Shown piece after piece: positions 1-30,096 of a stretch of DNA of 40,206 bases. Each line of letters opens with the position of its first letter. The first letter of the stretch is position 1. The stretch covers positions 1 to 40,206 of IMG/VR virus record IMGVR_UViG_3300028372_000211; one strand, given 5' to 3'. Under the pieces are notes generated by a model that was given only the letters and a program-made list of their open reading frames with translations, searched no databases and was not told the origin of the DNA. The position numbers and the translations under genes were made by a program. The stretch comes from a virus.

Positions 1-933
1 ACACCGTACGAAACAGGATCAGCAGTGTACAACGGAGGAACCTTTACTCTAACATCCGACACAGAAACGAACCCAAACGGTATTGCATTTAATGACGATG
101 GGTCTAAAATGTTTATTACTGGTAGTGGAGTTAAAACTAATGCCGAAGTATATCAATATACGTTAACAACTCCGTTTGATATAACAACTGTGTCATACGA
201 CAATGTAGTGTTTAGCATGCAAGTGGATGATCGTCTCGGAGGGCTTGTGTTTAACAACAACGGAACTAAAATGTTCATTATTGGGACCTTGGCTGGTTTA
301 ATTTACCAATGCGAACTGTCAACGCCGTACGACCTTACAACAGCAGCGTATAATTCATTTGCGTTGAATACTCAGTATGACAATATAAACCTGTTTGTAG
401 GTAGTCAAAATAGCTTAATGGTTGGCTTAGCATTTAGCCTGGACGGAACAGTTTTATATACGCTCGGTGCTAACACCGAAACTGGAGTATACAAATATAC
501 ATTGACACAGCCATACGCCATAACATCAGCAAGTTATTCAGACGATTTCTACGATACCCGACCGCAGGATCAAGCTGCGTTTGGATTCACGTTTAACAAT
601 AACCAATCTAAGCTGTTTGTAGTAGGTGCAGCTACTAGTTACGCTTATCAGTATTCTTTGACACAAAACGATGTTTACGTATTAGAGTTTGCCGACGTAG
701 GGTTCGAGCCATTACTTACGGCAATACCAGATCGTTCAATTGAACACACAGGCCCTACCGGAAGACAGTGGGACGGAGAATACGTTCAAGTATCATATCC
801 TCAAATAACAGGTGATGCTAGAGGTATAAAATATAAGTTCATAGCAGACGTTGGACAAGTTGTAAACGAAGCAAGATATGATCTAACTAAGACTGCACCT
901 GGTATTAGAGACATACGAGGATTAACTCCTTAA
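1..933 (+). CDS. Repeat protein, beta-propeller-like, probable virion/adhesion protein (5' partial)
   Basis: Frame 1 is open from the first base with no stop, so the gene enters the window from the left and only its last 310 codons are visible. The visible part has four units of about 55-65 residues, each with a core like GLxFNNNGTKMFIIG followed by YxYxLxTPYDLTTAxY. This alternation resembles WD/YVTN-type beta-propeller blades. The last 70 residues are different and may be an attachment or assembly domain. A GTG at base 25 is in frame but lies inside a repeat unit (TPYETGSAVY precedes it), so I do not take it as the start. The gene converges on the minus-strand oxygenase-like gene and shares a TTAA stop palindrome with it. 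A virion role is inferred from the repeat style and the phage context. No enzymatic motif is visible. Confidence 0.7.
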   Translation, partial: TPYETGSAVYNGGTFTLTSDTETNPNGIAFNDDGSKMFITGSGVKTNAEVYQYTLTTPFDITTVSYDNVVFSMQVDDRLGGLVFNNNGTKMFIIGTLAGLIYQCELSTPYDLTTAAYNSFALNTQYDNINLFVGSQNSLMVGLAFSLDGTVLYTLGANTETGVYKYTLTQPYAITSASYSDDFYDTRPQDQAAFGFTFNNNQSKLFVVGAATSYAYQYSLTQNDVYVLEFADVGFEPLLTAIPDRSIEHTGPTGRQWDGEYVQVSYPQITGDARGIKYKFIADVGQVVNEARYDLTKTAPGIRDIRGLTP

Positions 934-941
934 TCCTCGTA
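914..941. terminator. Bidirectional terminator-like hairpin at convergent stops
   Basis: There is a perfect 12-bp inverted repeat, TACGAGGATTAA at 914-925 and TTAATCCTCGTA at 930-941, with a 4-base loop CTCC. Both convergent stop codons lie in the TTAA at 930-933. The bases after the stem are AT-rich on the plus side but do not form a clean U-tract. Termination, or 3' end protection of both mRNAs, is inferred. Confidence 0.6.
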
Positions 942-1796
942 ATAATAGTATTCTAGATTATCAACACCGATGAGTTTTCTAAATTCATCGGTGAACTTGC
1001 CTTCTACTTTTAAAGTAATAGACGTATAAGGATTGCTTTCAAAACAACCGTGCCAGTTATGATGATTAAAAAACGCCGAATATCCTTCAACAGGATATTC
1101 TTTTATTACATCCCCATTCTCTATATCTAATTCAAACAAACAAAAAGGTCTGTCTAAATCAAAACGTAACCAAATCAATTCTTGCCTGTGCGGAAATGTT
1201 TCTGGCTTATCGCCTTTTTCATAAGGAAAGTAGTTAAAGTCTCGATGAAAGTTTTGCACTACAAAATGCTCATTGTAAAACAAAGTAACCACTCCGATTT
1301 CGTCAAATGGCAGATCGTTTATAATAAAATCTTTTATCGCCGGATACTCTTCCATATATTCTTCCCAATAATACTTTGCCCAGTCTTCCTCGGTAAATAT
1401 GTAAGAGTCAGCAGCATAATAAGGACCGAACGTTTTACGTATATTAAGAATGTTATACGGATCGTATGCATCGTAACGAAGCTTCAAGTATCTTGACAAC
1501 CCGTGTAAATCATCTTTGTCTTCAAAATGTTTTAGATGCTGATTAAGTTTTTCGTCTATTTTACGGTCTTCGTTTGCTTGACGATACACGTAATACAGCA
1601 ATCCCTTTTCTCTAAAGATCTCAGGTGCGTTATAATAGTCGTGCGGGGAATGTCCGCCTGCGTTCCATACACCCGTTCTGATGTGTTCCCAACTGTTAGA
1701 TACTAGAAACTCAAAGTCATTTCTCAAATCTAGGAATTTTGGAATGTTTAAATACTTGTCTAATGTAATATAAGGGTGTCCGTTAATAGTGAGCAT
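930..1796 (-). CDS. 2OG-Fe(II) oxygenase-like protein, paralog of the gene at 2989-3771
   Basis: The protein has 288 residues. The probable iron site is HRD (residues 184-186) with a later His in HNWHG (about residue 249), the HxD...H arrangement of cupin-fold 2-oxoglutarate/Fe(II) oxygenases and Asp/Asn beta-hydroxylases. It is clearly paralogous to the 260-aa protein at 2989-3771: both have a HRxExxxxR-type strand after HRD, an AxFFNxxxWH segment, and a GKFTDEFRxxIGxxN C-terminus. The Arg that often binds 2OG is a Lys here (SITLKVEG), whereas the paralog has Arg. I chose ATG at 1796; an in-frame GTG at 1823 would run through the promoter-like box and into the divergent gene. No Shine-Dalgarno precedes 1796. 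Substrate unknown. Confidence 0.6.
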   Translation of the reverse strand: MLTINGHPYITLDKYLNIPKFLDLRNDFEFLVSNSWEHIRTGVWNAGGHSPHDYYNAPEIFREKGLLYYVYRQANEDRKIDEKLNQHLKHFEDKDDLHGLSRYLKLRYDAYDPYNILNIRKTFGPYYAADSYIFTEEDWAKYYWEEYMEEYPAIKDFIINDLPFDEIGVVTLFYNEHFVVQNFHRDFNYFPYEKGDKPETFPHRQELIWLRFDLDRPFCLFELDIENGDVIKEYPVEGYSAFFNHHNWHGCFESNPYTSITLKVEGKFTDEFRKLIGVDNLEYYYYED

Positions 1797-1800
1797 ACAA

Positions 1801-1808
1801 TATTTATG
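1801..1808 (-). promoter_or_regulatory. Late-promoter-like box CATAAATA, leaderless spacing
   Basis: On the minus strand the sequence reads CATAAATA, 4 bases, then ATG at 1796. It fits the NATAAATA form of the T4-type late promoter. In T4 the transcript starts about 5-6 bases after the octamer, so this mRNA would begin at or next to its start codon. The box overlaps the ATG of the divergent gene at 1806. Confidence 0.45.
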
Positions 1809-2369
1809 AACGAAAATAATCACACAAGTAAAGAAAGGTTCGATTGCGAAGCTCTGGTAAGTGAGTTAAACATTGACCACGGCCACTACAAAACTGCGGA
1901 AAAGCCGTATGGCACAGATGTTACTCTTAGCGACAATATACAACAGTCAGTTGATCAAATGATGCAACAGTGGCAACACGGCGGCTACTTTACTAATGAT
2001 TCTGTGGAATGGATTAACTTTTATCCAGGCGAACATTTTAACGATTCGCATGTAACAAAGGTTGCAGAGCAGTTAAACGTAACACCAAAGAACGTGTGGG
2101 TCAGTGCTATACGGCCAGGCAAGTGTGTACCTTATCACTGGGACATAGAAACCGAAGCAGACAAATGGGCAGCTGAAGGCAATCTCGTTAGATATACAAT
2201 CTTCTTAGAAACTGGCAAAGTAGGGCAAGTGTTTATAGTAGGCAATAAATGCTTCCATATGATCTCTCAAGGCACAATATACCGCTGGGATAAATGGGAC
2301 GAGTATCACCTAGGGTTTAACTGTGGATTCGCCGATAAATACGTTATGCATATTGTAGGTATAGAATGA
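1806..2369 (+). CDS. Small HxD...H (2OG-Fe(II) oxygenase/cupin-like) protein
   Basis: The protein has 187 residues. A jelly-roll-like core contains PYHWD (H111, D113), a strand VRYTIFLETG, a second half QVFIVGNKCFHM, and a second His at WDEYHLGF (H158). This is the usual spacing for a facial-triad iron site in short phage 2OG-Fe(II) oxygenases. A clear C-terminal Arg for 2OG is not visible. ATG at 1806 is used because the in-frame upstream codon at 1776 lies deep inside the divergent minus gene. The start lies 9 bases from the minus-strand ATG at 1796. The gene overlaps the next one by ATGA. Substrate unknown. Confidence 0.55.
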   Translation: MNENNHTSKERFDCEALVSELNIDHGHYKTAEKPYGTDVTLSDNIQQSVDQMMQQWQHGGYFTNDSVEWINFYPGEHFNDSHVTKVAEQLNVTPKNVWVSAIRPGKCVPYHWDIETEADKWAAEGNLVRYTIFLETGKVGQVFIVGNKCFHMISQGTIYRWDKWDEYHLGFNCGFADKYVMHIVGIE

Positions 2370-2992
2370 AAATTATAAGCTCGGCAGACGACAGAACATT
2401 CGTTTTTTTAAAAGAAAAAGGTGTACACAATCCAGTGTATATCGGATTATGGAACAGCGTTATTAATAACGAACTGCTAGAATCAATTAAACAGTTTGAC
2501 TGGAGTTCTATTACTATTAGAGACTTCGAAACAATGTCCAAAATGGCTAGAGAAAATCCTATGTACAACGAGATCAAAGGAATAACTCATACAACATCGT
2601 TTGCTGACAAAAGTAACGTGAAATGGCAAATCATTAACGCTAATCAATTAGGTGCTGATCTGAGCTATCTATACAGCAAACTATCATCGATGTTTACTCA
2701 GTACAAGATTTGGGTGACTAGAATAGATCCCGGATGCTGTATACCTCAACACGTTGACACAGTAGATGCATTCGTCGACGACTTTGAAATTCCCGAAGAA
2801 AAAATAAAGAACATTAAACGCCTAGCAATACTTCCCGAAGATATAAAACCATGGCATCATTTATGGTATGGAAATAAAATCATTTCTGAAGGAAAACAAG
2901 GCGACGTGTGGTCTTTTAATTTCTGGACTCCACACGGCGGAAGTAACTTAGGACCAGATCCTAAGTATACGATACAAGTGATTGCAATTTAA
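2366..2992 (+). CDS. Small HxD...H (2OG-Fe(II) oxygenase-like) protein
   Basis: The protein has 208 residues. The core reads WVTRIDPGCCIPQHVDT (H129, D131), then KRLAILPED, then WSFNFWTPHGGSN (H190). This HxD...H pattern with a PG-containing turn before the first His is typical of the Asp/Asn beta-hydroxylase or 2OG-Fe(II) type of phage protein. The first 100 residues are a variable N-terminal region with no motif I recognise. It starts inside the previous stop (ATGA) and so is translationally coupled. Its TAA stop shares a TTAA palindrome with the convergent gene at 2989. Function beyond an iron-dependent oxygenase fold cannot be assigned. Confidence 0.6.
   Translation: MKIISSADDRTFVFLKEKGVHNPVYIGLWNSVINNELLESIKQFDWSSITIRDFETMSKMARENPMYNEIKGITHTTSFADKSNVKWQIINANQLGADLSYLYSKLSSMFTQYKIWVTRIDPGCCIPQHVDTVDAFVDDFEIPEEKIKNIKRLAILPEDIKPWHHLWYGNKIISEGKQGDVWSFNFWTPHGGSNLGPDPKYTIQVIAI
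2946..2966. terminator. Possible terminator hairpin before convergent stops
   Basis: There is a perfect 8-bp inverted repeat, ACTTAGGA at 2946-2953 and TCCTAAGT at 2959-2966, with a 5-base loop. It lies inside the coding region about 24 bases before the stop and has no U-tract. It could serve as a terminator for this convergent junction, but the case is weak. Confidence 0.25.
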
Positions 2993-3771
2993 TAACTATC
3001 AACGTTTCCTAGTCCGATCTTTTCACGAAACTCATCTGTAAACTTACCATCTATGCGCAAGCTAAAAGTCTGAACAGGAGAAGTACCACCGGCGTGCCAG
3101 TCCTGATCGTTAAAGAACGTTGCTCGACTTTCGGTTAATACCTTTTCGTCTGTTTCAGGATCCCATATATAAAACGGCTTATCCAAACAAGTACGCATAT
3201 GAATAAACTCGTGTCTGTGATCAAAGTAGTCATGCTCGTCTGGCAATATTAGGTCCCTGTGCAGCGGCATCCAACAATTATGTTCTGCTTTAAAAAAGAT
3301 AACTCTGCCCAAGTGCGTTAATATATTCTGTTCGACTAAGTTTTCCAACCATTGTTTTAATTCTGGAAAATATTGTGCATCTGGTGTCCACGTCTTTTCT
3401 TCGAATCGTGAATCCCATCCGCCTGCTTCTGTCTTAAGAAACACAAACTGATATGGATCAAATGCTCCTAGTGCTAACTTCAAAAACAGCATGAACTGAT
3501 CTCGATTGTCGTATTCCCCAATAGCACGACCTTCTACTCTTATTTCGTGATCGTAAGGCAATGCGTGATATTCTTCTAGTGCAAGGTATAGAGGCTTAAT
3601 AGGTAATTCAAAAGCGCCATCACATCCGCCCGGCTTTACCATGTTTCCTTCTTTCTTATATTCAGATTGCACAATTCCTCGACAAATCTTATAGTGCAGT
3701 TTTGAAAACCCTTCAACGTCGATATGCTCGTCTAGATTAATATACGGTTTTTTGTTAACGCCTCGTATCAT
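2989..3771 (-). CDS. 2OG-Fe(II) oxygenase-like protein, paralog of the gene at 930-1796
   Basis: The protein has 260 residues. The iron site is likely HRD (171-173) and H226 in NDQDWHAGG, with R239 in SLRIDG as a candidate 2OG ligand. These match an Asp/Asn beta-hydroxylase-like core. The C-terminus GKFTDEFREKIGLGN matches that of the gene at 930-1796, so the two arose by duplication, although they now lie in separate operons with two plus-strand oxygenase genes between them. ATG at 3771 overlaps the upstream stop as ATGA. It is the last gene of a minus operon that runs from 6637. Substrate unknown. Confidence 0.6.
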   Translation of the reverse strand: MIRGVNKKPYINLDEHIDVEGFSKLHYKICRGIVQSEYKKEGNMVKPGGCDGAFELPIKPLYLALEEYHALPYDHEIRVEGRAIGEYDNRDQFMLFLKLALGAFDPYQFVFLKTEAGGWDSRFEEKTWTPDAQYFPELKQWLENLVEQNILTHLGRVIFFKAEHNCWMPLHRDLILPDEHDYFDHRHEFIHMRTCLDKPFYIWDPETDEKVLTESRATFFNDQDWHAGGTSPVQTFSLRIDGKFTDEFREKIGLGNVDSY

Positions 3772-4463
3772 TTATTACCCCTTTTTACTTTGTATTGTAC
3801 TTCTAACTTGTTTAATTCTTTATTCAGTCTATCTAATGACTCGTCGTTTACTTCTACTACAATGCGGTCATCAGCAAACTCGATAAACTTCATGTTCTTC
3901 TCTTTGATCAATTGTGACATTAACACAGACACAGAATTATCAATGTTATAACGCAGATTATAAGGTCTGTTCGAAAACACAAGTTCGATTCGTTCAAGAC
4001 CAGTGTCGTCGTAATTAGATAATCTAACTCTTGCAACTAACTGTACTCTTGGGCTTGATCCAAAATTTGCAGCAGTGTGAACATAGCTTCCGTCCATATA
4101 ATAGATCTTATTATCAGCGCTGGTCTTATGCATTTCGTTTGTTATGAGGTTAATCAGATAACATTGGTCGTTTGACAGGAGGTTCAAATGTATACGATCA
4201 TCAATATCTGCGTGCGACCTATAGCAGGTGCCAGGACCTAGCTTAATTAGTCTTGCTTCGCCAATAGAATACTGTTCTAACTCTATCAATAAATCTTCAA
4301 ACGGAGTACCCTTCCACTCTTGATTAACTTCGTAAGGGTCGTATAGCCGATGCCCTGTTGGGTGATTAAGGTTAGCTCTATTTGTATCGTCCCAATTAAC
4401 ATCCTCTAAGTAGTCTGCTAACGACTCTGTACTTATAGTGTGATTCAAATCTTTAAGAAACAT
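3768..4463 (-). CDS. Asp/Asn beta-hydroxylase-like oxygenase with a C-terminal extension
   Basis: The protein has 231 residues from the ATG at 4463; an in-frame TTG at 4484 would lengthen the overlap with the upstream gene and has no good ribosome-binding site. The core contains LGPGTCYRSHADIDDRIHLNL (H84, D86), then YYMDGSYVHTAANFG (H129), and R139 in SSPRVQLVARV. All three iron ligands and the 2OG-binding Arg of the aspartyl/asparaginyl beta-hydroxylase family can therefore be placed. The last 75 residues (from about NRPYNLRYN) are a charged, probably helical extension outside the core. It overlaps its neighbours on both sides within the minus operon. Substrate unknown. Confidence 0.65.
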   Translation of the reverse strand: MFLKDLNHTISTESLADYLEDVNWDDTNRANLNHPTGHRLYDPYEVNQEWKGTPFEDLLIELEQYSIGEARLIKLGPGTCYRSHADIDDRIHLNLLSNDQCYLINLITNEMHKTSADNKIYYMDGSYVHTAANFGSSPRVQLVARVRLSNYDDTGLERIELVFSNRPYNLRYNIDNSVSVLMSQLIKEKNMKFIEFADDRIVVEVNDESLDRLNKELNKLEVQYKVKRGNK

Positions 4464-5145
4464 AAATCTGTCTTGCTCTGTCAATAAAACTGTCTGGATA
4501 GTTAAACCGAAAACTTTCTAACGCAATGAGCTGATAAGCAGTCCACGTTAGTGTGCTCTCCCAGGATAATCCTTCTTTTTCAAAATATTCTAGAAGTTTG
4601 GCTTGTCTGTCGTGACTGATATGGCTTTGGAATATTTGCATAGGGTGTACTGCTTCACTATTGTCATGACAGAAAAAGTAATTAATACTCTTTAGCTGGC
4701 CGTCTATTAAGAAATAACTACTTGGGTGCAGGCTATACTTATAAAAGCCTAAATCTTTGTGCGCCTGTAGTATCTCTAACATTTGACCTTCCCAGTCTGG
4801 CAACACCTCTTCAAAGCTCTTTTCAGCATCTAAGCACTGTTGCCAAAAATCAACGCCATCTATTTTTAAGTACAGTTCCTTTCGTTCGTGATCAATAAAA
4901 TCTGTCTCCGGAACTAGATTAGGATAGTTCTTTTGCATCAATTTCAAGAAGTAAATTTCTCTATTCCATTTTTCTTCCATTAACTCAGAATCTATTACTT
5001 GGTTCTGGTCTTTATGATATATCTTATCATTATAAAACCACTGCACAAAACGTTTCTTGTCTTCGGATATAAGACTAGTGTAAACCAGATTATTTCTTAC
5101 TAAGCCGTGTTCAGGAGTATTGTTGTAATAATATTCGTACTTCAT
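4453..5145 (-). CDS. Divergent kinase-like protein, probably a pseudokinase
   Basis: The protein has 230 residues. Order along the chain: an N-lobe-like part with WNREIYFLKLM (candidate helix-C Glu63), a hinge-like ELYLKIDG, then a C-lobe segment at about 121-158 in which AHKDLGFYKYSLHPSSYFL resembles the catalytic loop of LPS- or RIO-type kinases (HGDLHPSN). In this reading the catalytic Asp is Ser138, the Asn is Ser, and the DFG Asp is Asn155 (SINYFF). If the match is right, the protein keeps the fold but not the chemistry and could be a binding or scaffold protein. Start ATG at 5145 has AGAGG upstream and overlaps the previous stop as ATGA. It lies between a beta-hydroxylase-like gene and the small repeated protein. 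The fold call is inference. Confidence 0.4.
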   Translation of the reverse strand: MKYEYYYNNTPEHGLVRNNLVYTSLISEDKKRFVQWFYNDKIYHKDQNQVIDSELMEEKWNREIYFLKLMQKNYPNLVPETDFIDHERKELYLKIDGVDFWQQCLDAEKSFEEVLPDWEGQMLEILQAHKDLGFYKYSLHPSSYFLIDGQLKSINYFFCHDNSEAVHPMQIFQSHISHDRQAKLLEYFEKEGLSWESTLTWTAYQLIALESFRFNYPDSFIDRARQIYVS

Positions 5146-5399
5146 TTATAATCCTCTTCTTGTCTATGGAACGGGGCATCGTCTCTTATCACAAACGTAA
5201 AATCGTCAAAGTATACCTCGATCCTGCGATACTTTCCCGGATAGCCTTTGACGTCCAGCCCCCATTCGGCTAACCACATGCCTTCTAAAGAGCTGTCGCC
5301 GCCTCTACCCGCTTGTACTAGGTGTAAAGGGATTTCACCACTGATTAACGGCTCGCCTGCTTCAAATACAGTATACTTTACAATACAATTTTTATCCAT
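5142..5399 (-). CDS. Small conserved protein, paralog of the gene at 9902-10150
   Basis: The protein has 85 residues. I do not recognise its family. It aligns with the 82-aa protein at 9902-10150 through YTVxxxGxxLxSGxxPxxL, then a Gly-rich GRGGDSSLEG turn and a WL motif, so both genes are real and homologous. It has no signal peptide, membrane segment or Cys pair. ATG at 5399 (GAGAG upstream) is preferred to an in-frame TTG at 5411. Both copies lie just downstream of the larger unknown partner; here an oxygenase gene is inserted between the two. It could be a carrier, chaperone or substrate peptide for the neighbouring enzymes, but none of these is shown. Confidence 0.6.
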   Translation of the reverse strand: MDKNCIVKYTVFEAGEPLISGEIPLHLVQAGRGGDSSLEGMWLAEWGLDVKGYPGKYRRIEVYFDDFTFVIRDDAPFHRQEEDYK

Positions 5400-5979
5400 T
5401 ATCACTCTCAATTGGTAGTTTTTCTATTAGCTGTTTCCAGTTGGCCCTGTGCTCGTTTCTATCTGTTTCTTTCAACACCAGTGTAACTGCACACCAGGGT
5501 TCGTCAGTGTTATTTTCTACTCCGTGCAGTTTATCCACTCTAATTAGACTAGGGTTTTTAATTATTGAAGACTCAGCGAATTGATAGTTGTCCGACTCAC
5601 AGGTAAGGTAATACCCGCCTATAGAATTATTCTCATAAACAACCTTATCTTGATCATATACGCTGTACCAAACCAAAGGAACACTGCTACTGCCATATGT
5701 CCAAATTAGCTTGCAGCAGCCTTCTGGTTCTATGTCATCAAAATGATCAGGCACCTTTGATCCAGGCATGCAATAAAACATCTCTGCTAGTTTAATCTCT
5801 AAGCCTAAGCTGTTAAGCCAAGTAATCAGCTCAGGGTTAACTGCGTCTTTGTCTATTTCTTTTTGCACAAAACTGTTCTCTGTACATTCAACATCTAGGA
5901 CTGACTTGCTTTGCACTACCTCGGGCACTTCTTGAGACAATGCTACAACATAATCACTTAGCCCATTGATCTTTTGCAT
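5392..5979 (-). CDS. Small HxD...H (2OG-Fe(II) oxygenase/cupin-like) protein
   Basis: The protein has 195 residues. PGSKVPDHFDD (H79, D81) and RVDKLHGVEN (H152) give the HxD...H metal site. The following AVTLVL strand lacks an obvious Arg. The region between them (LIWTYGSSSVPLVWYSVY, GGYYLTC) looks like jelly-roll strands. ATG at 5979 overlaps the upstream gene by 26 bases. The gene is inserted between the large and small members of the repeated cassette, an arrangement the second cassette lacks. Substrate unknown. Confidence 0.55.
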   Translation of the reverse strand: MQKINGLSDYVVALSQEVPEVVQSKSVLDVECTENSFVQKEIDKDAVNPELITWLNSLGLEIKLAEMFYCMPGSKVPDHFDDIEPEGCCKLIWTYGSSSVPLVWYSVYDQDKVVYENNSIGGYYLTCESDNYQFAESSIIKNPSLIRVDKLHGVENNTDEPWCAVTLVLKETDRNEHRANWKQLIEKLPIESDNG

Positions 5980-6637
5980 AGTCTGCTAGTTCCCATCCTA
6001 TATCTTGACCGTTGTGTTCCGCTCGATTAATTGCCTTCTGCACTTCACCCACATGCTTGTTATAAAAACTCTCGAAGCTGTTGTCCCAAAACTTGATATC
6101 TTTCCAAAAGAATCCTTGATCATCTTTGAGACGGTTTGTCATCTTAACTTTTGAAGGGTACTGACATCCGAATTCTTCGTCTAGCTTATCAAAGTACTTT
6201 ATCAGCACAGTTATGTCATCAATCCAATGTTTAGTGTATGTATAAGTGTCTTTCACTAGTCCCTTGTAATGAGAAGAGTATCCTATGTCGTCTCCTGGAT
6301 GACGGATTACTGTGTAGGTCCATTCTTCGCCGTTAATAGTCACTGGTTCGCAGTACATCGGCTCTGAAATCCTAAATTCTCCAGATTCGATACTGTACTC
6401 GTAGAGCCTTTTGTGACACTTCCAATCAGACTCATACCATTTTTTCTGTACAGAAAACACCAGGCCGTCGTGACGATAAAAATCAACAGCATCTTTGCCC
6501 CAATAATAAAACCCATTGTTCTGCGGCAGCCAGATATAGCTGCCTTTAACTGGGTTTACCCTAGGAATATTGTTGTGAAACTGGTCTGCACGCTCGGCAC
6601 TCCAGTTTTTTGCTTTGTTTACTAAGTCTTGTTTCAT
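5954..6637 (-). CDS. Conserved protein, larger member of the duplicated cassette (paralog of 10126-10884)
   Basis: The protein has 227 residues. The C-terminal third matches the protein at 10126-10884: YPSKVKMTNR then GFFWKDIKFWDNSFESFYNK and VGEVQK align with YPSSKFALLTR, GLYWRYLHNWNRSKEDFYHQ and VGELQK. The N-terminal half has alternating strands (FYRHDGLVFSVQKKW, GEEWTYTVIRHPG) that could be a divergent kinase N-lobe, but I cannot confirm this. The start is decided by the ribosome-binding site: AGAGG lies 6 bases before ATG 6637 but directly abuts an in-frame ATG at 6643. A minus-strand TATAAATA lies upstream at 6654-6661. It is the first gene of the minus operon and diverges from a radical SAM gene. 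Function unknown. Confidence 0.6.
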   Translation of the reverse strand: MKQDLVNKAKNWSAERADQFHNNIPRVNPVKGSYIWLPQNNGFYYWGKDAVDFYRHDGLVFSVQKKWYESDWKCHKRLYEYSIESGEFRISEPMYCEPVTINGEEWTYTVIRHPGDDIGYSSHYKGLVKDTYTYTKHWIDDITVLIKYFDKLDEEFGCQYPSKVKMTNRLKDDQGFFWKDIKFWDNSFESFYNKHVGEVQKAINRAEHNGQDIGWELADYAKDQWAK

Positions 6638-6653
6638 ATGCATCCTCTTTTTC

Positions 6654-6661
6654 TATTTATA
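6654..6661 (-). promoter_or_regulatory. T4-type late promoter TATAAATA (minus)
   Basis: This is an exact minus-strand match to the T4 late octamer TATAAATA, 16 bases before ATG 6637. The transcript leader would be about 10 bases and would contain the AGAGG ribosome-binding site. It drives the operon 6637 to 2989. It forms a divergent pair with the box at 6675-6682. Confidence 0.75.
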
Positions 6662-6674
6662 AGCAGTGCCGGCG

Positions 6675-6682
6675 TATAAATA
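6675..6682 (+). promoter_or_regulatory. T4-type late promoter TATAAATA (plus), leaderless spacing
   Basis: This is an exact plus-strand match to the T4 late octamer. Only 5 bases separate it from the ATG at 6688, and there is no Shine-Dalgarno, so the mRNA would start at or next to the initiation codon. It drives the three-gene radical SAM operon 6688-9894. Confidence 0.7.
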
Positions 6683-6687
6683 ATTTC

Positions 6688-21987: not shown

Positions 21988-21991
21988 CTTG

Positions 21992-22627: not shown

Positions 22628-23550
22628 TAGGCGTTGCGGATTACGCTAAAATCCCAACAATAGACAAGAGTATGCGCACCGTAAACTATGCTGATGTCAC
22701 AGACCTTGATTCAGTACCTGTGGGGAACTATCCCCAGCAAGTCATTGACGAAGCTAACGAGGACTTGGATACATTTGTCAGCTTCCTAGAGAAAGAAAGT
22801 GTTAAGGTAGTTCGGCCTGAGCGAACAGATTGCAACTATTACAACTATTGTCCAAGAGACAGTGTATTCATACACGGCGATAAGACTATCGCAACTCCCA
22901 TGCCGTTGCGTGCTAGGATAAACGAATACAAAGCATTTGAACAGCATCTGCAAAATGTCGAGAACCTTAACCAGCCACACTGGGACGCGCTCTATAACAC
23001 AGAGTGCATAGGCAACCCTGACATCTTGGCCCTTAATGAAACTGCTCCAGCATTTGATGCTGCTAACGTAATACGAGCAAACGACGATGTTTTATACCTT
23101 GTGTCAAACAGCGGAAACCGGCAAGGAGCTCTGCTGTTAGAAACTATGTTAGACAATGTAAATGTACACGAACTTGAAGGCATATACAGCTATATGCACA
23201 TCGACTCAACTATTGCTTTTTTACGCGAAGGGCTGATGTTGCTCAACCCAAGTAGAATTAAAAGTAAATCTCAACTCCCAAAGCCTTTTAGACATTGGGA
23301 TGCTATATGGTGTCCTGAACCAACTGACATAGGTTATTATCCAGGATATTGTAACGCTAGCGAATGGATCAATATGAACTTGTTTAGTGTGTCGCCGAGC
23401 CTTGTAGTGCTAGAAGAAAATCAACACTCGCTTAGAAAAGAGCTGGAAAAACATGGCATAGAATGTGCTATGTTGCCTATGCGTCATCAACGTACCCTAG
23501 GCGGCGGATTTCATTGTGTAACCTTGGACTTAGATAGACATGTGGATTAA
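22585..23550 (+). CDS. Amidinotransferase (AGAT/StrB-like)
   Basis: The protein has 321 residues, close to the 345-420 of the family. CPRDSVF (89-95), FDAANVIR (D158), MHIDSTIAFLREG (H205, D207) and LGGGFHCVTLDLDR (Cys311) match the Asp/His/Cys catalytic set of glycine amidinotransferase and inosamine-phosphate amidinotransferase. These enzymes move an amidino group from arginine onto an amine, forming a guanidino group. ATG at 22585 has AGGAA upstream and lies 43 bases inside the PLP gene, so the two are coupled. A PLP-dependent amination followed by amidino transfer is the logic used in streptomycin-type guanidino-sugar synthesis; application here is inference. Glycine is an alternative acceptor. 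Confidence 0.85.
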   Translation: MPSKNEWSQLKKVVVGVADYAKIPTIDKSMRTVNYADVTDLDSVPVGNYPQQVIDEANEDLDTFVSFLEKESVKVVRPERTDCNYYNYCPRDSVFIHGDKTIATPMPLRARINEYKAFEQHLQNVENLNQPHWDALYNTECIGNPDILALNETAPAFDAANVIRANDDVLYLVSNSGNRQGALLLETMLDNVNVHELEGIYSYMHIDSTIAFLREGLMLLNPSRIKSKSQLPKPFRHWDAIWCPEPTDIGYYPGYCNASEWINMNLFSVSPSLVVLEENQHSLRKELEKHGIECAMLPMRHQRTLGGGFHCVTLDLDRHVD

Positions 23551-24034
23551 AGGAAGTGTAAAACCGCGTTGGAACAACCGCTATAAAGAGTTTGAGTACG
23601 TCAGACAACCGCTTACTGACAAGGAACTAATATATTGGAAAGACCAAGGTTATAATCATCAAAACTTTACAGGCATGATGTATGACAGTACTAATCCGAT
23701 GCCTGTTTGGGTGAGAGCCGTTGCTGCTGAAATCGGACTTAACAAATGCGGATATGTGTTTTACAAAATGGTAACCGGCGATATAATGCCTATGCATGTT
23801 GACCACTATCGTCGTTATTGCCAAGTCTTTGATGTTGAGTATAAAGACGTTTGGAGAGCTATTGTTTTCTTAGAAGATTGGCAAAGTGGACACTACTTTG
23901 AAATTAACAGGCATGCATTTTGTAACTATAAAGCAGGTGATTACATTCTTTGGCAAAGTGACACACCTCACGCTGCTTCGAACATAGGAGTGGACGATAG
24001 ATACACTTTACAAATAACAGGAGTTTTAGATTGA
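23540..24034 (+). CDS. Small HxD...H...R (2OG-Fe(II) oxygenase-like) protein
   Basis: The protein has 164 residues. TGDIMPMHVDHYRRYC gives H86 and D88, DYILWQSDTPHAASNIG gives H144, and DDRYTLQITG gives R154. The full HxD...H...R set is present in a minimal jelly-roll. The strand WRAIVFLEDW before the turn is typical. ATG at 23540 overlaps the amidinotransferase by 11 bases. It may hydroxylate the product of the two upstream enzymes, but this is inferred from position only. Confidence 0.65.
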   Translation: MWIKGSVKPRWNNRYKEFEYVRQPLTDKELIYWKDQGYNHQNFTGMMYDSTNPMPVWVRAVAAEIGLNKCGYVFYKMVTGDIMPMHVDHYRRYCQVFDVEYKDVWRAIVFLEDWQSGHYFEINRHAFCNYKAGDYILWQSDTPHAASNIGVDDRYTLQITGVLD

Positions 24035-25230
24035 TTGTACGTATTGAAATAATGCACAAGGATAAGATATATGTACAAGCCGGTTATACTAGCTATACTC
24101 GTCTTCATCCTATACACAAAAGGTCTAAGAGTAGTTCTGCCTCATACCACACAGTAACAAATAAGATTGAAAGAACAGACGGCACTGCTATCGTTACGTT
24201 ATATTCTGGATGTACTAAAACTAACATAAAAGACATAATTAGGTTTATAAAAGTTAACCGAATAAAAAACGTTTACTTCTTTATCGAAGATGTTTTTAGA
24301 TTATATTCAAAGAAACATCAATTTGCATATTTAGAAACCTACGTTTTAGATTACGATCAGAAAAGCGTTAGGTCACTCGAACTGGATATGATCTCTACGA
24401 TAATAAGCAAAACTAAATGCAACTACAAAATATATCATTGCGAACAAAACGCAGACATAGTGGGAGAAAATTACAACTTAGAAATAAACTATTTTGATTG
24501 GTTTTTTCTAGATTGTATTGACATCAAGAATTCAGGAAAGCAACGTAAATATATAGAATCGAAAATTCCTATTAAACATAAAATATCGTGCTTTAATCTA
24601 CGACGAGACTGGCACCGTACTATTATTATGTCCTTGATAAAAGACTTTGACGGCACTTTTAGTCTAAATGATTCATATACAACAAAAGAGTTGATAACGA
24701 ACCCGGCTATACCACTAAAGAATTTTGGGCGGCCTATAAGCAAACGTATTGTTAAAGGAAATAAATCCTTGCTCGAATCACCCATATTATGGGATGCTGC
24801 GCCAGACAAGAATGGCAAAATAACAGCACCGACCCACAAGAATCAGTTAGATAATACAGGGGCTATTGCCGCATCATTTGTTAACGTTGTGACAGAAACC
24901 AGATTTGCATCTAGCATGCCGAACGTGTCAGAAAAAACCCTGAAACCAATTTTAGTTAAACGACCTTTTATTATGGTTGGCCCAGTAGGAACACTAGCTC
25001 ATTTGCGCGAACTAGGGTTTAAGACATTTAGCAAGTGGTGGGACGAAGGGTATGACAGCATAACTGATCACAGCAAACGCTTAGAAATGATCTATAAAAT
25101 AATAGAATCTATTAACGATATGCCATTGGATGATCTCAACACACTGCTAGAAGATATGAACAGTGTGTTAGAACACAACTTTAACAATATGTTAAAGCTC
25201 GGGGAACAAATGGGGAAGAACTTAGATTAA
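24031..25230 (+). CDS. Protein with a marine-phage glycosyltransferase-like C-terminal domain
   Basis: The protein has 399 residues. The C-terminal part (about 287-399) reads FVNVVTETRFASS then EKTLKPILVKRPFIMVGPVG, LRELGFKTF and WWDEGYDSITD. I associate this pattern with putative phage and marine bacterial glycosyltransferases, in which ExxxxKxxxxI..RPF binds the sugar donor. The N-terminal 280 residues are Lys-rich and lack motifs I recognise. The start is TTG at 24031 because AGGAG lies 7 bases upstream and the codon overlaps the previous stop as TTGA; ATG at 24052 is the alternative. Its end overlaps the convergent radical SAM gene by 9 bases within a hairpin. Acceptor unknown. Confidence 0.5.
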   Translation: MIVRIEIMHKDKIYVQAGYTSYTRLHPIHKRSKSSSASYHTVTNKIERTDGTAIVTLYSGCTKTNIKDIIRFIKVNRIKNVYFFIEDVFRLYSKKHQFAYLETYVLDYDQKSVRSLELDMISTIISKTKCNYKIYHCEQNADIVGENYNLEINYFDWFFLDCIDIKNSGKQRKYIESKIPIKHKISCFNLRRDWHRTIIMSLIKDFDGTFSLNDSYTTKELITNPAIPLKNFGRPISKRIVKGNKSLLESPILWDAAPDKNGKITAPTHKNQLDNTGAIAASFVNVVTETRFASSMPNVSEKTLKPILVKRPFIMVGPVGTLAHLRELGFKTFSKWWDEGYDSITDHSKRLEMIYKIIESINDMPLDDLNTLLEDMNSVLEHNFNNMLKLGEQMGKNLD

Positions 25231-25238
25231 GTTCTTCC
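25214..25238. terminator. Bidirectional terminator-like hairpin at convergent stops
   Basis: There is a perfect 11-bp inverted repeat, GGAAGAACTTA at 25214-25224 and TAAGTTCTTCC at 25228-25238, with a 3-base loop GAT. It contains both convergent stop codons. No long U-tract is present. The role as a shared terminator or mRNA 3' end is inferred from position and symmetry. Confidence 0.6.
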
Positions 25239-26625
25239 ATTCTCTGTACACGCCCTCCATTTCCGGAAAAGTTCCTAAGAAATCAGTGCCACGTCGACGA
25301 TCATGCTCGTCGACAAAGATTACAAAATCTTTTCGCAGTGTTTCTAGCTCGCCTCGTGACATCTTTTCATTTGAGAATACTTCTTGCAACCTGCTAAACT
25401 TGTCGCCTTCCCATTCGTAGAATCCTTGATTACAAATACTCATATCGTGCGGCGACTCTAGGTTATTGCGAATAAACTCTAGTTGTTTAGTGATGTACTT
25501 CTCATTCCATTCCGGCGGCGCAATCTTAATAGCTTGATGATCAGGATATCTGAGATACGGCACATCTAAAATAATAGGAATAGCCTTACCTGGGCCGCCA
25601 AAGTCTTTCTTAATAGCAAGGATATCTTCTAAGAACTTGTCAAAAGATATCATGCTTAACAGATTGTAGGTACACATACAAGTAAAAGTACAGCCTGGTA
25701 CTTCTGTTAGAACGCGACGAATATTGTACAACCATTTATCGTAATCTAAGCCGTGTCTAATATACTCTGCCTGGGCACCATAAGCCTCGGCGCTTGTGAA
25801 TATCTTAAACTTCTTAACCAGATTGTTGTCGCAAATATACTTTACCTTACTAAAAAACTTTTCAAACAATTCATCCGGAATGCACATATTACTGTTGACA
25901 GAGAATTCAATATTAGGCAGTGGGTTCTCAATAATGTAATCCAATACCTTAAACGTATCTTTGGCCAGCAATGGCTCGCCGCCGGTGATTCTAAAGTGAT
26001 GCAACTTGTCAGAAATCTCAGGCCACCATTTCCAAAATGCGTCCACGTATGGATTATATTCACGCACAGGAATAGGCACTGTTCCATTCTGCTCCATTGA
26101 ATGCAAGCTGTTAAATGGCTTACTAGTTTCGTACGCGCCGTGTTGCTTTATTTCATCCATCCACTTACTGCTAACCTGCGGTCCGCAATAGCTACACTTG
26201 AAATTACATACACTGCTGAAACTAACTTCTAAGTAAGTAGGCACAACGTCATGGTCCCATGGCATTGTCTTGATTTCTTCCATGTATGGCAACGCCCATG
26301 GCTCGTAGGACTTGTACGTGCGATCGCTGACAGCATCTTCGTTGCTATCTTCTACGCGCCAACAATAGTCACATTCGCTAGGGCGCTCGCCTTGCAGCAT
26401 CTTTTTACGCTGCTCTTTTTTATACTTAGTGTTATGCAACGCGCTTGGATTGTTTTCAAGCTCTTCAACAGGAATCTTGTGTGCTGTTGGGTGATGGCAG
26501 CTATGTGTCTGGCCACTGTGAAGATGCAACGTCACCTGCTTCCACTTAGCCAAACAAAAGCCTGTCCCTACTTCGTCTAATTCTTGTGTGACTGCTATTA
26601 ATCTACTGTTTGAAAAATCGCTCAC
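25222..26625 (-). CDS. Radical SAM protein with N-terminal Cys-cluster (twitch/SPASM-like) domain
   Basis: The protein has 467 residues. The N-terminal domain has FCLAKWKQVTL (C24), THSCHHP (C43) and MLQGERPSECDYCWRVEDS (C85, C88), and the core CNFKCSYC (C140, C144, C147) follows, with ITGGEPLLAKDT later. It is the third member of the family at 6688-7959 and 10924-12336; the shared signature is RxxMLxGExPxxCxxCxxxE. Start is GTG at 26625, supported by AGGAAGG upstream and a GTGA overlap with the previous stop. Last gene of the minus operon from 30096. The other genes of this operon are glycosyltransferases and two unknown proteins, which hints at a glycan or glycosylated target. Substrate unknown. 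Confidence 0.85.
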   Translation of the reverse strand: MSDFSNSRLIAVTQELDEVGTGFCLAKWKQVTLHLHSGQTHSCHHPTAHKIPVEELENNPSALHNTKYKKEQRKKMLQGERPSECDYCWRVEDSNEDAVSDRTYKSYEPWALPYMEEIKTMPWDHDVVPTYLEVSFSSVCNFKCSYCGPQVSSKWMDEIKQHGAYETSKPFNSLHSMEQNGTVPIPVREYNPYVDAFWKWWPEISDKLHHFRITGGEPLLAKDTFKVLDYIIENPLPNIEFSVNSNMCIPDELFEKFFSKVKYICDNNLVKKFKIFTSAEAYGAQAEYIRHGLDYDKWLYNIRRVLTEVPGCTFTCMCTYNLLSMISFDKFLEDILAIKKDFGGPGKAIPIILDVPYLRYPDHQAIKIAPPEWNEKYITKQLEFIRNNLESPHDMSICNQGFYEWEGDKFSRLQEVFSNEKMSRGELETLRKDFVIFVDEHDRRRGTDFLGTFPEMEGVYREWKNLI

Positions 26626-27524
26626 TTAATCCTTCCTATAATTCTTGGTGTATTTTCGTACACTTGTTTGAAAAACTTTGATGCGTTATCGTCTAGTTCT
26701 GCAACTTCAAGATCTAATTCTTCGCGCAATGCTTGTCCTGTGTTTACTATCTTGAATTTTGCATCATCTTCTGAGAAGCTGCCGTACATTTCGTACCAAT
26801 ATTCTGTTAGATATTCGAAGTCTCTGACTTGAGTGTAATCCCAATCTGTGCAGTTTGTCATATAAACGCCTTCTCGAGCGCCTAACATACTCCAGATACC
26901 GTTCTTTACATCGGCGCCAACATTGCACCAAATAAGCAACCGGTCATAATTTTGCCACCACACGGACTTCAGCATAGATGTCTTTTCGCCTTGGTTCAAA
27001 CTCATCTTCACTCCTTCGCGGAACCCTGCTCGCCATGCCTGAAACGGTGTTTCGTTTGTGTAACTTGTACAGTAGTTCGTATTGAATTGGTAATAAAGAT
27101 CGCTGAAACAAAACTCTACAACACTACGATGATCAGTTGCGTCGGCATTTTCATGTGTCTTCATGTTGTTTACAAATTCACGAGTCCACATCTTAAGGCC
27201 ACCGTTGCCATAACGCAAGCCGTTAACATGGACGTTTCCGCACCAGCTGAAAACATGCTTGTCTGTAAGTCCTAACTCGTCTAAGTCTATCTCTATATTC
27301 AAGAAATTAGGATCAATGATGTTATCAGCATCGATTGTAACAAAATATTCTGTTTCACTTAATGCTGCACACGCTTTGTGCGCTGCATCGCTGCCTTTGA
27401 CTCCGTGAACACGCTTGGCCCATGGAATCTTGGTACAAAGGTCTGCGTAGTTCTTTTCTGCATTAGGTTCGTCATAGGACAAGAAAATGATATCTTGGTC
27501 TACAACTCTAATCTTATTGCTCAT
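26622..27524 (-). CDS. GT-A-like glycosyltransferase
   Basis: The protein has 300 residues from ATG 27524 (AGAGGA upstream). IIFLSYDEPNAEKNYADL opens the domain, RVHGVKGSDAAHKAC follows, and YFVTIDADNIID carries the DxD-like metal site (D65, D67). Further on, RYGNGGLKMWTR and FQAWRAGFREG match the C-terminal domain of the multi-repeat protein at 19067-20695, so the two are paralogs and this is the plain form without the repeats. A metal- and nucleotide-sugar-dependent transferase is likely; the acceptor is unknown. It lies between an unknown gene and a radical SAM gene. Confidence 0.7.
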   Translation of the reverse strand: MSNKIRVVDQDIIFLSYDEPNAEKNYADLCTKIPWAKRVHGVKGSDAAHKACAALSETEYFVTIDADNIIDPNFLNIEIDLDELGLTDKHVFSWCGNVHVNGLRYGNGGLKMWTREFVNNMKTHENADATDHRSVVEFCFSDLYYQFNTNYCTSYTNETPFQAWRAGFREGVKMSLNQGEKTSMLKSVWWQNYDRLLIWCNVGADVKNGIWSMLGAREGVYMTNCTDWDYTQVRDFEYLTEYWYEMYGSFSEDDAKFKIVNTGQALREELDLEVAELDDNASKFFKQVYENTPRIIGRIK

Positions 27525-28095
27525 TAAAAATCCTCTTAAACTGGTACGTGTCAAATTTGCGTGATGTAAATATGCTTATAGGCTCGTCTGAATGCTCAAA
27601 CGGCATAGTGAACGGCAGTACAACATAATTATCACGCACTACGTCAGCAAGTTCAACAAAAAGAGTTTTGTAAAGAATATTAGGATCTCCTTTAGCGGTG
27701 ACGCTTAACATCATCCTGTCGTTTACGGCAACTCCTTTCCCTCTAAGACTATCGCCAAGCACTGCACCGATGTGTACCTTCCAACAAGTGTTCACAACGT
27801 CTTGGACAATCAAAATGTCTGGAGATTTGCCGACTCCTTGTGGAACATCGTAGATAAAATTGTTTACAGAATTTCCTCTCATCTGTGTGTCGTATCGACT
27901 ACCGAACTCCATCTGCTTAATCTTGGTGTTGTACCGTACTTCAAATGCAGTAGTCGAATCTTCGCCACTAATTAGCTTTCTTACTTTGTCGAGCGGCACT
28001 GGAATCGAGTTCTCGCCCGTGTACTCTGTAGCTTTGATCCCTAGTATCGATCCTGTCTCTTTATCAAATTTTACATACATCATTTTTTCAGACAT
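27514..28095 (-). CDS. Conserved phage protein of unknown function
   Basis: The protein has 193 residues. I do not recognise a family. It is rich in beta-strand-like segments (MMYVKFDKETGSILGIK, AFEVRYNTKIKQMEFG, YVVLPFTMPFEH) and has no membrane segment or Cys pattern. This could be a small structural or DNA/RNA-binding protein, but nothing proves it. ATG at 28095 with AAGGA 9 bases upstream is preferred to TTG at 28101. It overlaps both neighbours, so it is part of the glycosyltransferase operon. Confidence 0.55.
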   Translation of the reverse strand: MSEKMMYVKFDKETGSILGIKATEYTGENSIPVPLDKVRKLISGEDSTTAFEVRYNTKIKQMEFGSRYDTQMRGNSVNNFIYDVPQGVGKSPDILIVQDVVNTCWKVHIGAVLGDSLRGKGVAVNDRMMLSVTAKGDPNILYKTLFVELADVVRDNYVVLPFTMPFEHSDEPISIFTSRKFDTYQFKRIFNEQ

Positions 28096-28915
28096 TTTCA
28101 AACTTCCTTATAATTTCTGGCGTAACAAAATCATTCTCAGTGTAATGAAATATTCCGTCTTGTAAATGATTGCCTATTTTAAGCTGTACTGAATCTGTAA
28201 GGTAAACACCAACGCGACTTTGCCAAGTAACTGGTGTAGACTCCCAGCCTTGTAATCCTGGCTGCATGTGCTTAATGTAAGGTGCCGAGTATCCTCTATT
28301 TGAGATGTCGTCGTCGATGTCTAAGATACGCGACACAATCGACGTAGTAATGTCCATACTGGGTTCTTTTGGATAGTGTTCCTTACAAAAGTTACCGTAA
28401 AATAGCTCCCAGTTTTTAGTTACTAGTTCTACCCAATCGTAAAACGTGTGCGCAAGTTCAGACTTTCTAAAGTAGTGTGCTGCATTATAAAAATTCGGTA
28501 GTTCGTTTTCGCGAAACGCCGCACGGTAAGGGTTAGTCTCCTCATTAACTAGTTCGTTGCGATAGCTAAAAACTCGGCAAGGAAAGTACAAGTCGTAATT
28601 ATCAAGAAACTCCCAGAACGGTGCTTGGTTGTCTAAGACTAACACATCGCTGTCTAGCACAATTGTTTGGTCGTAAGGAGTAGCGTGGTATAGCTTCCAC
28701 CGATGTTCTGTTTTGAAACGGCTGTTTGTTAGCTCGTACCAGGGAATTTCTATTATCTTGTCAAAAACTTTTTCTTGTTTTTTAAGCAACTTGTCGTTAG
28801 TAACAATACTGACAGGGTATTCGTTGCCACTTGCTTTTATACTTAATGCACAGAGGTAGGCTTGCGTGACATATTCTTTACCCTCTGCATATATTAGGAA
28901 TCCTTTACTGCTCAT
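28088..28915 (-). CDS. GT8-like glycosyltransferase
   Basis: The protein has 275 residues. KGFLIYAEGKEYVTQAYLCALSIK and SIVTND form the nucleotide-binding opening, and QTIVLDSDVLVLD (D88, D90) is the DxD metal site. NAAHYFRKSE and the later GLQGWESTP match retaining GT8-type enzymes in order and spacing. Paralog of the protein at 28905-29750 just upstream. ATG at 28915 lies inside the previous gene's end; an in-frame TTG at 28918 is an alternative. Donor and acceptor unknown. Confidence 0.65.
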   Translation of the reverse strand: MSSKGFLIYAEGKEYVTQAYLCALSIKASGNEYPVSIVTNDKLLKKQEKVFDKIIEIPWYELTNSRFKTEHRWKLYHATPYDQTIVLDSDVLVLDNQAPFWEFLDNYDLYFPCRVFSYRNELVNEETNPYRAAFRENELPNFYNAAHYFRKSELAHTFYDWVELVTKNWELFYGNFCKEHYPKEPSMDITTSIVSRILDIDDDISNRGYSAPYIKHMQPGLQGWESTPVTWQSRVGVYLTDSVQLKIGNHLQDGIFHYTENDFVTPEIIRKFENV

Positions 28916-29750
28916 CAATGCACCTGTTTAAGCTAAATTTGTTCATCACGTGAACATTAGCATCTTTAATTCTAAACGCTGTATACTCGCCGGCGTACTT
29001 GGGCTTCTCTAACAGAATAAACAAACTGTCGCCGTCGATGCTCCAAAGTATTGACTTGTCTGTAATGTAATAAAGACTGCCGGGCATAGGTTTAACAAAA
29101 TTGCCTGGTTGGTACCCGTTCATAACATGGATTGCCATACTAAACGCAAAATCATTTCGATACAAAGAACGACTTAGTTGAAAGACGTTGCTGTAATGTT
29201 TCCAATTTTCTTGTATGTGCTGCACTAAGTCAAAAAACACTTTGTTAGTTTCAGACTTACGGAAGAAAATAACAGTTGCCCAGTAAAAATCTACACTTGT
29301 GTCTGAGATTGTCTCAAACTCCTTGCCACGATCTATACCTGTTATGTCAACACAATCTTTGTACATCAGTAAATCGTGATGATTATCAAAACACTTCAGG
29401 AAACTGTTATTGGATATAACCACGTCAGTATCAAGAACAAGAGTTTCGTCATACGGTGACATCTCATATGACTTTGGTCGCAGGTCATTCTTCCATTCTA
29501 ATCTTTTAGAAGCTAGAGCGCCGTCGTTAAACGCTTTGACGTTGTCTGTTAGTTTGTAAGCAACAGGAATGACATTGTCGAACACTGTGTCGGCATCTTC
29601 ATAGACTGTTCGCAGGTATTTTTCACTATCTGTGACAATCGTAGTCGGAAGTCCTAGGTATTCCTTTGCTCGTTGTGCAAGAAAATATGCCTGCTTTACA
29701 TAGTCAACATGCGAATTGTTGCTCGCAAACACTAGTATGCCTTTAGTCAT
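28905..29750 (-). CDS. GT8-like glycosyltransferase
   Basis: The protein has 281 residues. GILVFASNNSHVDYVKQAYFLAQ and TTIVTDSEKYL open the domain, and DETLVLDTDVVIS (D107, D109) is the DxD site. It aligns with the downstream 275-aa protein in the first 110 residues and in the FFRKSE segment, so the pair is a tandem duplication. ATG at 29750 overlaps the stop of the 117-aa gene. Two related transferases next to each other usually add successive sugars; this is inference. Confidence 0.65.
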   Translation of the reverse strand: MTKGILVFASNNSHVDYVKQAYFLAQRAKEYLGLPTTIVTDSEKYLRTVYEDADTVFDNVIPVAYKLTDNVKAFNDGALASKRLEWKNDLRPKSYEMSPYDETLVLDTDVVISNNSFLKCFDNHHDLLMYKDCVDITGIDRGKEFETISDTSVDFYWATVIFFRKSETNKVFFDLVQHIQENWKHYSNVFQLSRSLYRNDFAFSMAIHVMNGYQPGNFVKPMPGSLYYITDKSILWSIDGDSLFILLEKPKYAGEYTAFRIKDANVHVMNKFSLNRCIDEQ

Positions 29751-30096
29751 GGTCTGTTAGTTTCTCCACAGACCGATTGTTCTTGAGTCTGGTGTATTCA
29801 GCATGGAAAGTGTTGGTGGCAGAGAAGTAGACATCAGTAATATCGTCTAAGAAGGCTTCTAAATCGCTGATCATTGCGGGAGTCTCGTTGTCGTCTACAA
29901 GCACAACGTCTTCGACATACTCTTTTTCTACTAGCATTGTTACAAATGTCATCAGTTCTTTGGTCACTGTAAACTGTGCGCCGGCATGATAAAAGATAAT
30001 TTGTTCGCGGTATTTTTCTTTGAGAATACGCTTCTGGTTGTTAAGCGTGATCATGTAATTTGAAAAGTCTAATGCTTTTTCAAGTCGTTCGTCCAT
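29743..30096 (-). CDS. Small conserved T4-like marine phage protein
   Basis: The protein has 117 residues. ALDFSNYMITLNNQKRILKEKYREQ, GAQFTVTKELMTFVTMLVE and an acidic stretch before DITDVYF give a mostly helical, charged protein. I recall similar small proteins in marine T4-like phages, but I do not know a function. ATG at 30096 has AGGAG 6 bases upstream, sequestered in a hairpin in read-through transcripts. A sigma70-like promoter lies directly upstream. First gene of the operon that continues to 25222. Confidence 0.7.
   Translation of the reverse strand: MDERLEKALDFSNYMITLNNQKRILKEKYREQIIFYHAGAQFTVTKELMTFVTMLVEKEYVEDVVLVDDNETPAMISDLEAFLDDITDVYFSATNTFHAEYTRLKNNRSVEKLTDHD

Follow-up and report, generated by a model that had tools for sequence, protein, structure and literature searches.

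The window analysed here, the whole 40,206-nucleotide stretch of the IMG/VR virus record IMGVR_UViG_3300028372_000211, contains 43 genes, and between positions 930 and 30096 it carries an island in which seven radical S-adenosylmethionine (SAM) proteins and eleven 2-oxoglutarate (2OG)-Fe(II)-oxygenase-like proteins are encoded (Table 1). The original prediction, made from the sequence alone, had placed both sets between structural genes, and this was borne out, as the island is bordered on the left by the virion-type gene g1 and on the right by tail-fibre and baseplate genes. Profile searches of the window yielded exactly seven PF04055 matches (g11, g12, g13, g16, g23, g25 and g32; E 3e-16 to 3e-6), all seven scoring over the curated cut-off and carrying CX3CX2C, in agreement with the predicted number. 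Three of them, g11, g16 and g32, also matched the N-terminal twitch radical SAM family NF033640 (319, 386 and 342 bits, respectively, against a curated cut-off of 170; E 4e-95 to 2e-115) and form one paralogous group, g12, g13 and g25 form a second, and g23 is a singleton.

The predicted count of eleven 2OG-Fe(II)-oxygenase-like proteins likewise holds in terms of family likeness; ten of them have canonical triads, and g22 has an HxN. Four were recognised through Pfam, namely g6, g18 and g20 by PF05118 and g22 by PF02668 (TauD), and seven had no Pfam match. The proteins g3, g4 and g30 make up one family, the profile of which also reaches g20, g18 and g6 (E 1e-8 to 1e-4). The HxD...H facial triad is invariant among the homologues of g2/g5, g9, g17, g3/g4/g30 and g6/g18/g20, and in the orthologues of g2/g5, g9 and g17 the HxD and the distal H are kept down to 26-42% identity. 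An AlphaFold model of g5, the sole protein modelled for the 2OG fold, had L-proline cis-4-hydroxylase among its PDB matches, together with further 2OG enzymes (Foldseek probabilities reached 1.00, but TM-scores were low); a PDB sequence search with g2/g5 gave no credible match. When the g9 and g17 families were compared profile to profile with the Asp/Asn hydroxylase group, no significant similarity emerged, and it is motif conservation that marks these two as probable 2OG-Fe(II) oxygenases. Despite its PF02668 match, g22 lacks the HxD/E...H triad: in this protein and in all homologues compared, including the relative in Prochlorococcus phage P-HM1, WH(S/A)NE, i.e. HxN, replaces HxD. Because HxN-E is conserved in place of HxD, catalysis by g22 is uncertain, and an iron ligand may have been lost or changed throughout a phage family.

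Searching for the same gene set elsewhere, as had been proposed with the original prediction, we found that its genes co-occur as a module in eight further contigs at least; five of these (G030, G032, G034, G036 and G037) are without the tail flank. Of the 24 genes g2-g25, G032 lacks g14, g15 and g22 and has the other 21, clearly diverged and beside a different flank, many of these genes are present in G034, G030, G036 and G037, and G015, G021 and G007 carry a large part of the set adjoining tail genes. The most widely shared genes are g16, g23, g25, g24 and g26. The co-occurrence of the genes as a set, and their mixture with sugar-nucleotide, aminotransferase, amidinotransferase and glycosyltransferase-like genes, support the dedicated modification or biosynthesis system that had been proposed. 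A second unit consists of the amidinotransferase with a 2OG gene on the same strand at most 300 bases away (59 of 73 loci), and a short DegT gene adjoins this unit in 22 loci. The amidinotransferase g29 is homologous over its full length to StrB1, a member of solved structure (1bwd; E 6e-64, residues 4-318), and is closest to this inosamine-phosphate amidinotransferase. Furthermore, on Bdellovibrionia contigs of metagenome-assembled genomes (MAGs), one of them 936 kb long, relatives of g16, g23, g25, g24, g26 and g13 stand together with extra radical SAM genes in a neighbourhood of polysaccharide genes, where glycosyltransferase family 2, GDP-mannose dehydratase, acyltransferase and also asparagine synthase are encoded. 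Five Bdellovibrionia loci (L210, L211, L212, L216 and L221) contain 4-12 CX3CX2C proteins per 16-21 kb that are related to the phage core. Three loci (L214, L215 and L244) filed as Acidimicrobiaceae, Gammaproteobacteria and Neomarinimicrobiota MAGs look like phage, L244 clearly and the other two probably; L244 has g38-g32 in order.

Contig G028 is 99.94% identical to positions 1-20011 of the window and reaches past its left end, where the 2173-amino-acid protein containing g1 is the first of several long structural-looking genes; the right two thirds of the window are matched by a relative at 95.3% identity. Since the left half and the right two thirds are each confirmed by other contigs, an assembly chimera is an unlikely origin of the window. 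The g42 protein is 54-57% identical to its counterparts in Sinorhizobium phage Phosso and Agrobacterium phage Atu_ph07, and the full-length counterpart of g43 in relatives, a giant baseplate protein, has about 4500 amino acids. The gp23 major capsid protein (PF07068), which is not among the genes of the 40-kb window, was found in the relatives G015, G016, G021 and G022 and in Phosso, that of G015 being 65-70% identical to those of Phosso, GAP32, CBB and PBECO4 (70% to Phosso). Because of these g42 and gp23 identities we assign the phage of the window, on sequence grounds, to the Phosso/Atu_ph07/Rak2 jumbo type; the "T4-like" of the original prediction holds only broadly, in that relatives bear gp23, and calls for this refinement. 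A tblastn search of phage records with g43, g37 and g2 gave no match.

At least 597 stretches in IMG/VR contain relatives of g42. In the contigs examined, the order behind g42 is g41-g40-g39-g38-g37-g36-g35-g34-g33-(g32), followed by an island of variable content. Whole records of relatives have 18 (G022), 15 (G018), 14 (G016, G019 and G021), 13 (G015 and G017) or 11 (G023 and G024) PF04055 genes, the majority, not all, of them inside the island behind the tail genes. Phosso and Atu_ph07 each have three at the corresponding place, PBECO4 has one, and none was found in Vibrio phage 2.275.O, CBB or GAP32. In the islands of three relatives, 47 of the 139 proteins scanned were radical SAM proteins, and the other families included epimerases/GDP-mannose dehydratase, FkbM methyltransferase, asparagine synthase, UDP-sugar dehydrogenase, AMP-binding, B12-binding, nitroreductase and subtilase. 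The idea that the island is unique to this phage was rejected, as relatives carry 11-18 radical SAM genes and a 117-kb viral contig found through its amidinotransferase (G040, locus L159) has 21 matches over about 57 kb. The same island is swappable and occurs widely, in many versions, among uncultivated phages.

Upstream of genes of this lineage the T4 late promoter core ATAAATA was counted 114 times against 5.1 expected, a 22-fold enrichment, and it precedes g42 in 49 of 49 and g39 in 63 of 66 distinct loci. Counted in the window alone, TATAAATA shows no excess (4 against 2.6 expected), and it is informative only by its position relative to gene starts, across relatives. Late-type motifs stand before g10 and g15 in the window and in their orthologues. 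Before g37 we found a sigma-70 motif, TTGACa-17-TATAAT, with 10-12 of 12 matches in all 13 contigs compared and in 36 of the 48 of a larger set. The same score of at least 10 of 12 occurs before tail gene families in between 0 of 49 and 5 of 88 cases, and a random window 75-mer reaches it at spacing 17 with a probability of 0.0013. Because a sigma-70 motif, not ATAAATA, precedes g37, the glycosyltransferase/radical SAM block g37-g32 is probably expressed early; the other arms (g10-g5 and g15-g14) may be expressed late.

From the observed gene families, their co-occurrence, their position and the promoter sequences we infer a substrate, an order of steps, a timing of expression and a surface role. 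In the explanation that we favour, at slightly below an even chance, the island is hypervariable, tail-fibre-linked and partly early, and its pathway serves to build a surface structure that contains sugar and to tailor it by oxidation. The products of g19, g27, g28 and g29 would make unusual building blocks, probably guanidino-bearing, the GT8-like g35 and g36 (perhaps also g26/g33) would transfer these to an acceptor, and the radical SAM proteins and 2OG oxygenases would do C-H chemistry on the product, i.e. oxidation, epimerisation, hydroxylation and cross-linking. As a host sigma-70 promoter probably drives early transcription of g37-g32, part of the pathway could act on the host, the most likely target being the host surface polysaccharide, altered against competing phages; the two arms with T4-type late motifs may work late. 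Several points weigh against this. No island enzyme has a known substrate, and the flippases, polymerases and ligases of polysaccharide pathways were not seen among the proteins of the window. No structural match was obtained for g33 or g26, a PDB sequence search with g33 gave no credible match, and glycosyltransferase families are absent from the 25 commonest Pfam families in the islands of the three relatives. Moreover, the sigma-70 site of the window itself, at 10 of 12, is weaker than those of most relatives, and late read-through from the tail genes could extend into the genes behind them.

The late motifs before g10 and g15 and the tail-gene neighbours also fit a modification of the virion, and this is the strongest rival, unlikely but to be reckoned with: tail-fibre or virion proteins would be hydroxylated, cross-linked and glycosylated, which would make the fibres variable in their chemistry in addition to their sequence. 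Members of the Asp/Asn hydroxylase family often have protein substrates, in relatives the island and the conserved block lie directly behind tail-fibre genes, and the island lies between virion genes; however, the sigma-70 motif that heads g37-g32 speaks for early expression, the five contigs that lack these tail genes have the module too, and the radical SAM core is also found in bacterial MAGs. Twitch/SPASM radical SAM enzymes often mature peptides, and the enzyme closest to g29, StrB1, belongs to streptomycin biosynthesis; together with the AMP-binding, asparagine synthase, nitroreductase and subtilase families in the islands of relatives, this would suit a small-molecule or peptide natural product, or a reprogramming of host metabolism, with a soluble metabolite or cofactor and no surface structure. 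A metabolic benefit was proposed for CP220 by Timms et al. (PMC2853527). Yet a precursor peptide, carrier protein or exporter was not recognised, sugar-nucleotide and GT8-like genes are present, and we consider a soluble product distinctly unlikely. The island might also be a hot spot that gathers unrelated oxidising enzymes with separate roles and no shared pathway, given the strongly differing island content of G015, G022 and G019, the paralogous pairs and the interchangeable cluster published for CP220/CPt10 (PMC2853527). This is improbable, because much of the gene set stays together even where the flanks of the contigs differ. Nucleic-acid hypermodification, for restriction escape or host regulation, is very improbable: enzymes of both superfamilies take part in modifying DNA and tRNA, and weak phrog QueE-like matches were obtained, but searches for a TGT/DpdA-type transglycosylase (0 of 15 records) and for the thymidylate synthase family (2 of 15), a weak test as the records are mostly fragments, did not support it, and no nucleic-acid-binding domain was recognised in the island of the window.

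The tailored surface structure can also be taken further. Up to about 20 radical SAM proteins, here with eleven 2OG-like proteins, might form an assembly line for a glycan or glycoconjugate of a new class, heavily C-H-modified, with which the infected cell is given a new coat early in infection. Jumbo phages would exchange it in the manner of a serotype cassette, and the predatory Bdellovibrionia would have a related pathway. This wider proposal is doubtful.

Each element of the island has a precedent, in CP220/CPt10, the pelagimyophage host-recognition cluster, S-SCSM1 or the polysaccharide clusters of jumbo cyanophages. The original prediction knew of no characterised phage cluster this dense, but CP220/CPt10 carry 11-12 radical SAM proteins, five of which share an interchangeable cluster with an amidinotransferase (PMC2853527), cyanophage S-SCSM1 has 24 2OG genes (PMC9602691), and the uncultivated relatives described above reach 18-21 radical SAM genes. 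CP220/CPt10 (Firehammervirus) are T4-related myophages in which the five radical SAM genes lie near tail genes as an exchangeable module (PMC2853527), with nucleotide-sugar-transferase-fold genes and an amidinotransferase homologous to g29; unlike the window they have no PF05118 2OG oxygenase and belong to a different phage lineage, and individual gene homology is very low, so that the likeness of the two is one of kind. The pelagimyophage cluster is a hypervariable island within the structural region, between VrlC and gp14, with tail fibres, glycosyltransferases and radical SAM cassettes, which is read as changing the host surface (PMC7029224), a parallel that favours our explanation; the island of the window similarly lies behind a giant baseplate protein, but the lineage is another one, a search with g16 giving no pelagiphage match and none being among the g42 matches listed. 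S-SCSM2R has an amidinotransferase with 63% identity to g29 and, adjoining it, 2OG, short DegT-like, radical SAM and glycosyltransferase genes, but the radical SAM genes number only two. Phosso and Atu_ph07 share a homologous g42, a giant structural protein and a tail protein, then three PF04055 genes, whereas the cluster is small in both, and in Phosso there is no PF05118 gene and the families of the window's island were not recognised. The capsular polysaccharide modification clusters of jumbo cyanophages combine glycosyltransferases, sugar-nucleotide enzymes and 2OG hydroxylases, but the word SAM does not occur in their survey (PMC7824862). In the openly searchable literature (subscription papers and preprints lay outside the search) we found no description of the combination with eleven 2OG-like proteins, of islands reaching 18 or more radical SAM genes, of the promoter boundary or of the Bdellovibrionia counterpart.

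These data suggest that tail genes followed by a dense radical SAM cluster recur, in modular form, in a widespread jumbo-phage lineage, beyond the Campylobacter phages, and that such a cluster is combined here with an equal load of 2OG oxygenases. If oxygen-sensitive radical SAM proteins and oxygen-using enzymes do act on one product, the chemistry would be new for phages. The promoter boundary gives a testable prediction of timing that bears on host surface versus virion, and cultured relatives exist (CP220, Phosso and Atu_ph07).

Table 1. Genes and promoter motif of the window, with positions, strand and basis of assignment.
Feature	Position	Strand	Basis
g1, C-terminal end of large virion-type protein, left island border	1..933	+	2173 aa in contig G028
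g2, 2OG-Fe(II)-oxygenase-like, g5 paralogue	930..1823	-	triad in orthologues
g3, 2OG-Fe(II)-oxygenase-like, g3/g4/g30 family	1776..2369	+	family profile, triad
g4, 2OG-Fe(II)-oxygenase-like	2366..2992	+	family profile, triad
g5, 2OG-Fe(II)-oxygenase-like	2989..3771	-	triad; model matches PDB 2OG enzymes
g6, Asp/Asn beta-hydroxylase-like 2OG oxygenase	3768..4484	-	PF05118
g7, protein-kinase fold, degenerate catalytic motifs	4453..5145	-	
g8, small protein, g14 paralogue	5142..5411	-	
g9, probable 2OG-Fe(II) oxygenase	5392..5979	-	invariant HxD...H
g10, g15 paralogue, late-type TATAAATA upstream	5954..6643	-	
g11, N-terminal twitch radical SAM (NF033640)	6610..7959	+	Pfam, NCBIfam
g12, radical SAM	7956..8843	+	PF04055
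g13, radical SAM	8803..9894	+	PF04055
g14, small protein, g8 paralogue	9902..10150	-	
g15, g10 paralogue, late-type promoter motif upstream	10126..10884	-	
g16, N-terminal twitch radical SAM, in most widely shared core	10924..12336	-	Pfam, NCBIfam
g17, probable 2OG-Fe(II) oxygenase	12423..13007	+	invariant HxD...H...R
g18, Asp/Asn beta-hydroxylase-like 2OG oxygenase	12988..13683	+	PF05118
g19, short-chain dehydrogenase-like	13680..14246	+	
g20, Asp/Asn beta-hydroxylase-like 2OG oxygenase	14237..14791	+	PF05118
g21, conserved with module	14775..15356	+	
g22, TauD-like, phrog_24590, conserved HxN for HxD	15333..16412	-	PF02668
g23, radical SAM, core	16423..17508	-	PF04055
g24, methyltransferase-like, core	17489..18088	-	motif, inference
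g25, radical SAM, core	18021..19070	-	PF04055
g26, repeat protein with g33-like end domain, glycosyltransferase-like (tentative)	19067..20695	-	
g27, nucleotide-sugar dehydrogenase	20696..21913	-	Pfam, NCBIfam
g28, short DegT/LegC-type aminotransferase-like protein	21989..22627	+	
g29, amidinotransferase, inosamine-phosphate (StrB1) type	22585..23550	+	
g30, 2OG-Fe(II)-oxygenase-like	23540..24034	+	family profile, triad
g31, widespread family	24031..25230	+	
g32, N-terminal twitch radical SAM, conserved behind tail genes	25222..26625	-	Pfam, NCBIfam
g33, highly conserved DxD protein, glycosyltransferase-like (tentative)	26622..27554	-	
g34, conserved in g37-g32 block	27514..28101	-	
g35, GT8-like glycosyltransferase	28088..28918	-	
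g36, GT8-like glycosyltransferase, g35 paralogue	28905..29750	-	
g37, small conserved protein, first of block behind sigma-70-type promoter	29743..30096	-	
Sigma-70-type promoter motif TTGACT-17-TAAAAT, gap g38/g37	30119..30147	-	conserved in relatives
g38, virion/tail-type protein, right island border, late-type TATAAATA upstream	30151..31116	-	
g39-g41, paralogous tail-fibre/collar proteins	31145..36660	-	
g42 and C-terminal part of g43, jumbo-phage baseplate/tail proteins	36660..40206	-	

A PDB sequence search with g24 gave no credible match. The fold of g7, a protein conserved with the module, matched TTK best and also the O-antigen kinase WbdD, and with its degenerate catalytic loop and no canonical catalytic residues g7 is possibly a pseudokinase. 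A small protein and an uncharacterised one form a duplicated pair, g8/g10 (5142-6643) and g14/g15 (9902-10884), which is also present in G032, around a g9 orthologue, and in G036. In g26, about three tandem repeats of some 100 residues precede the g33-like C-terminal domain, and the protein has 226-656 amino acids across relatives. In addition, four radical SAM matches were obtained in Vibrio phage K566 (L307), from seawater and oysters, and three of these form a cluster beside distant g16 relatives.

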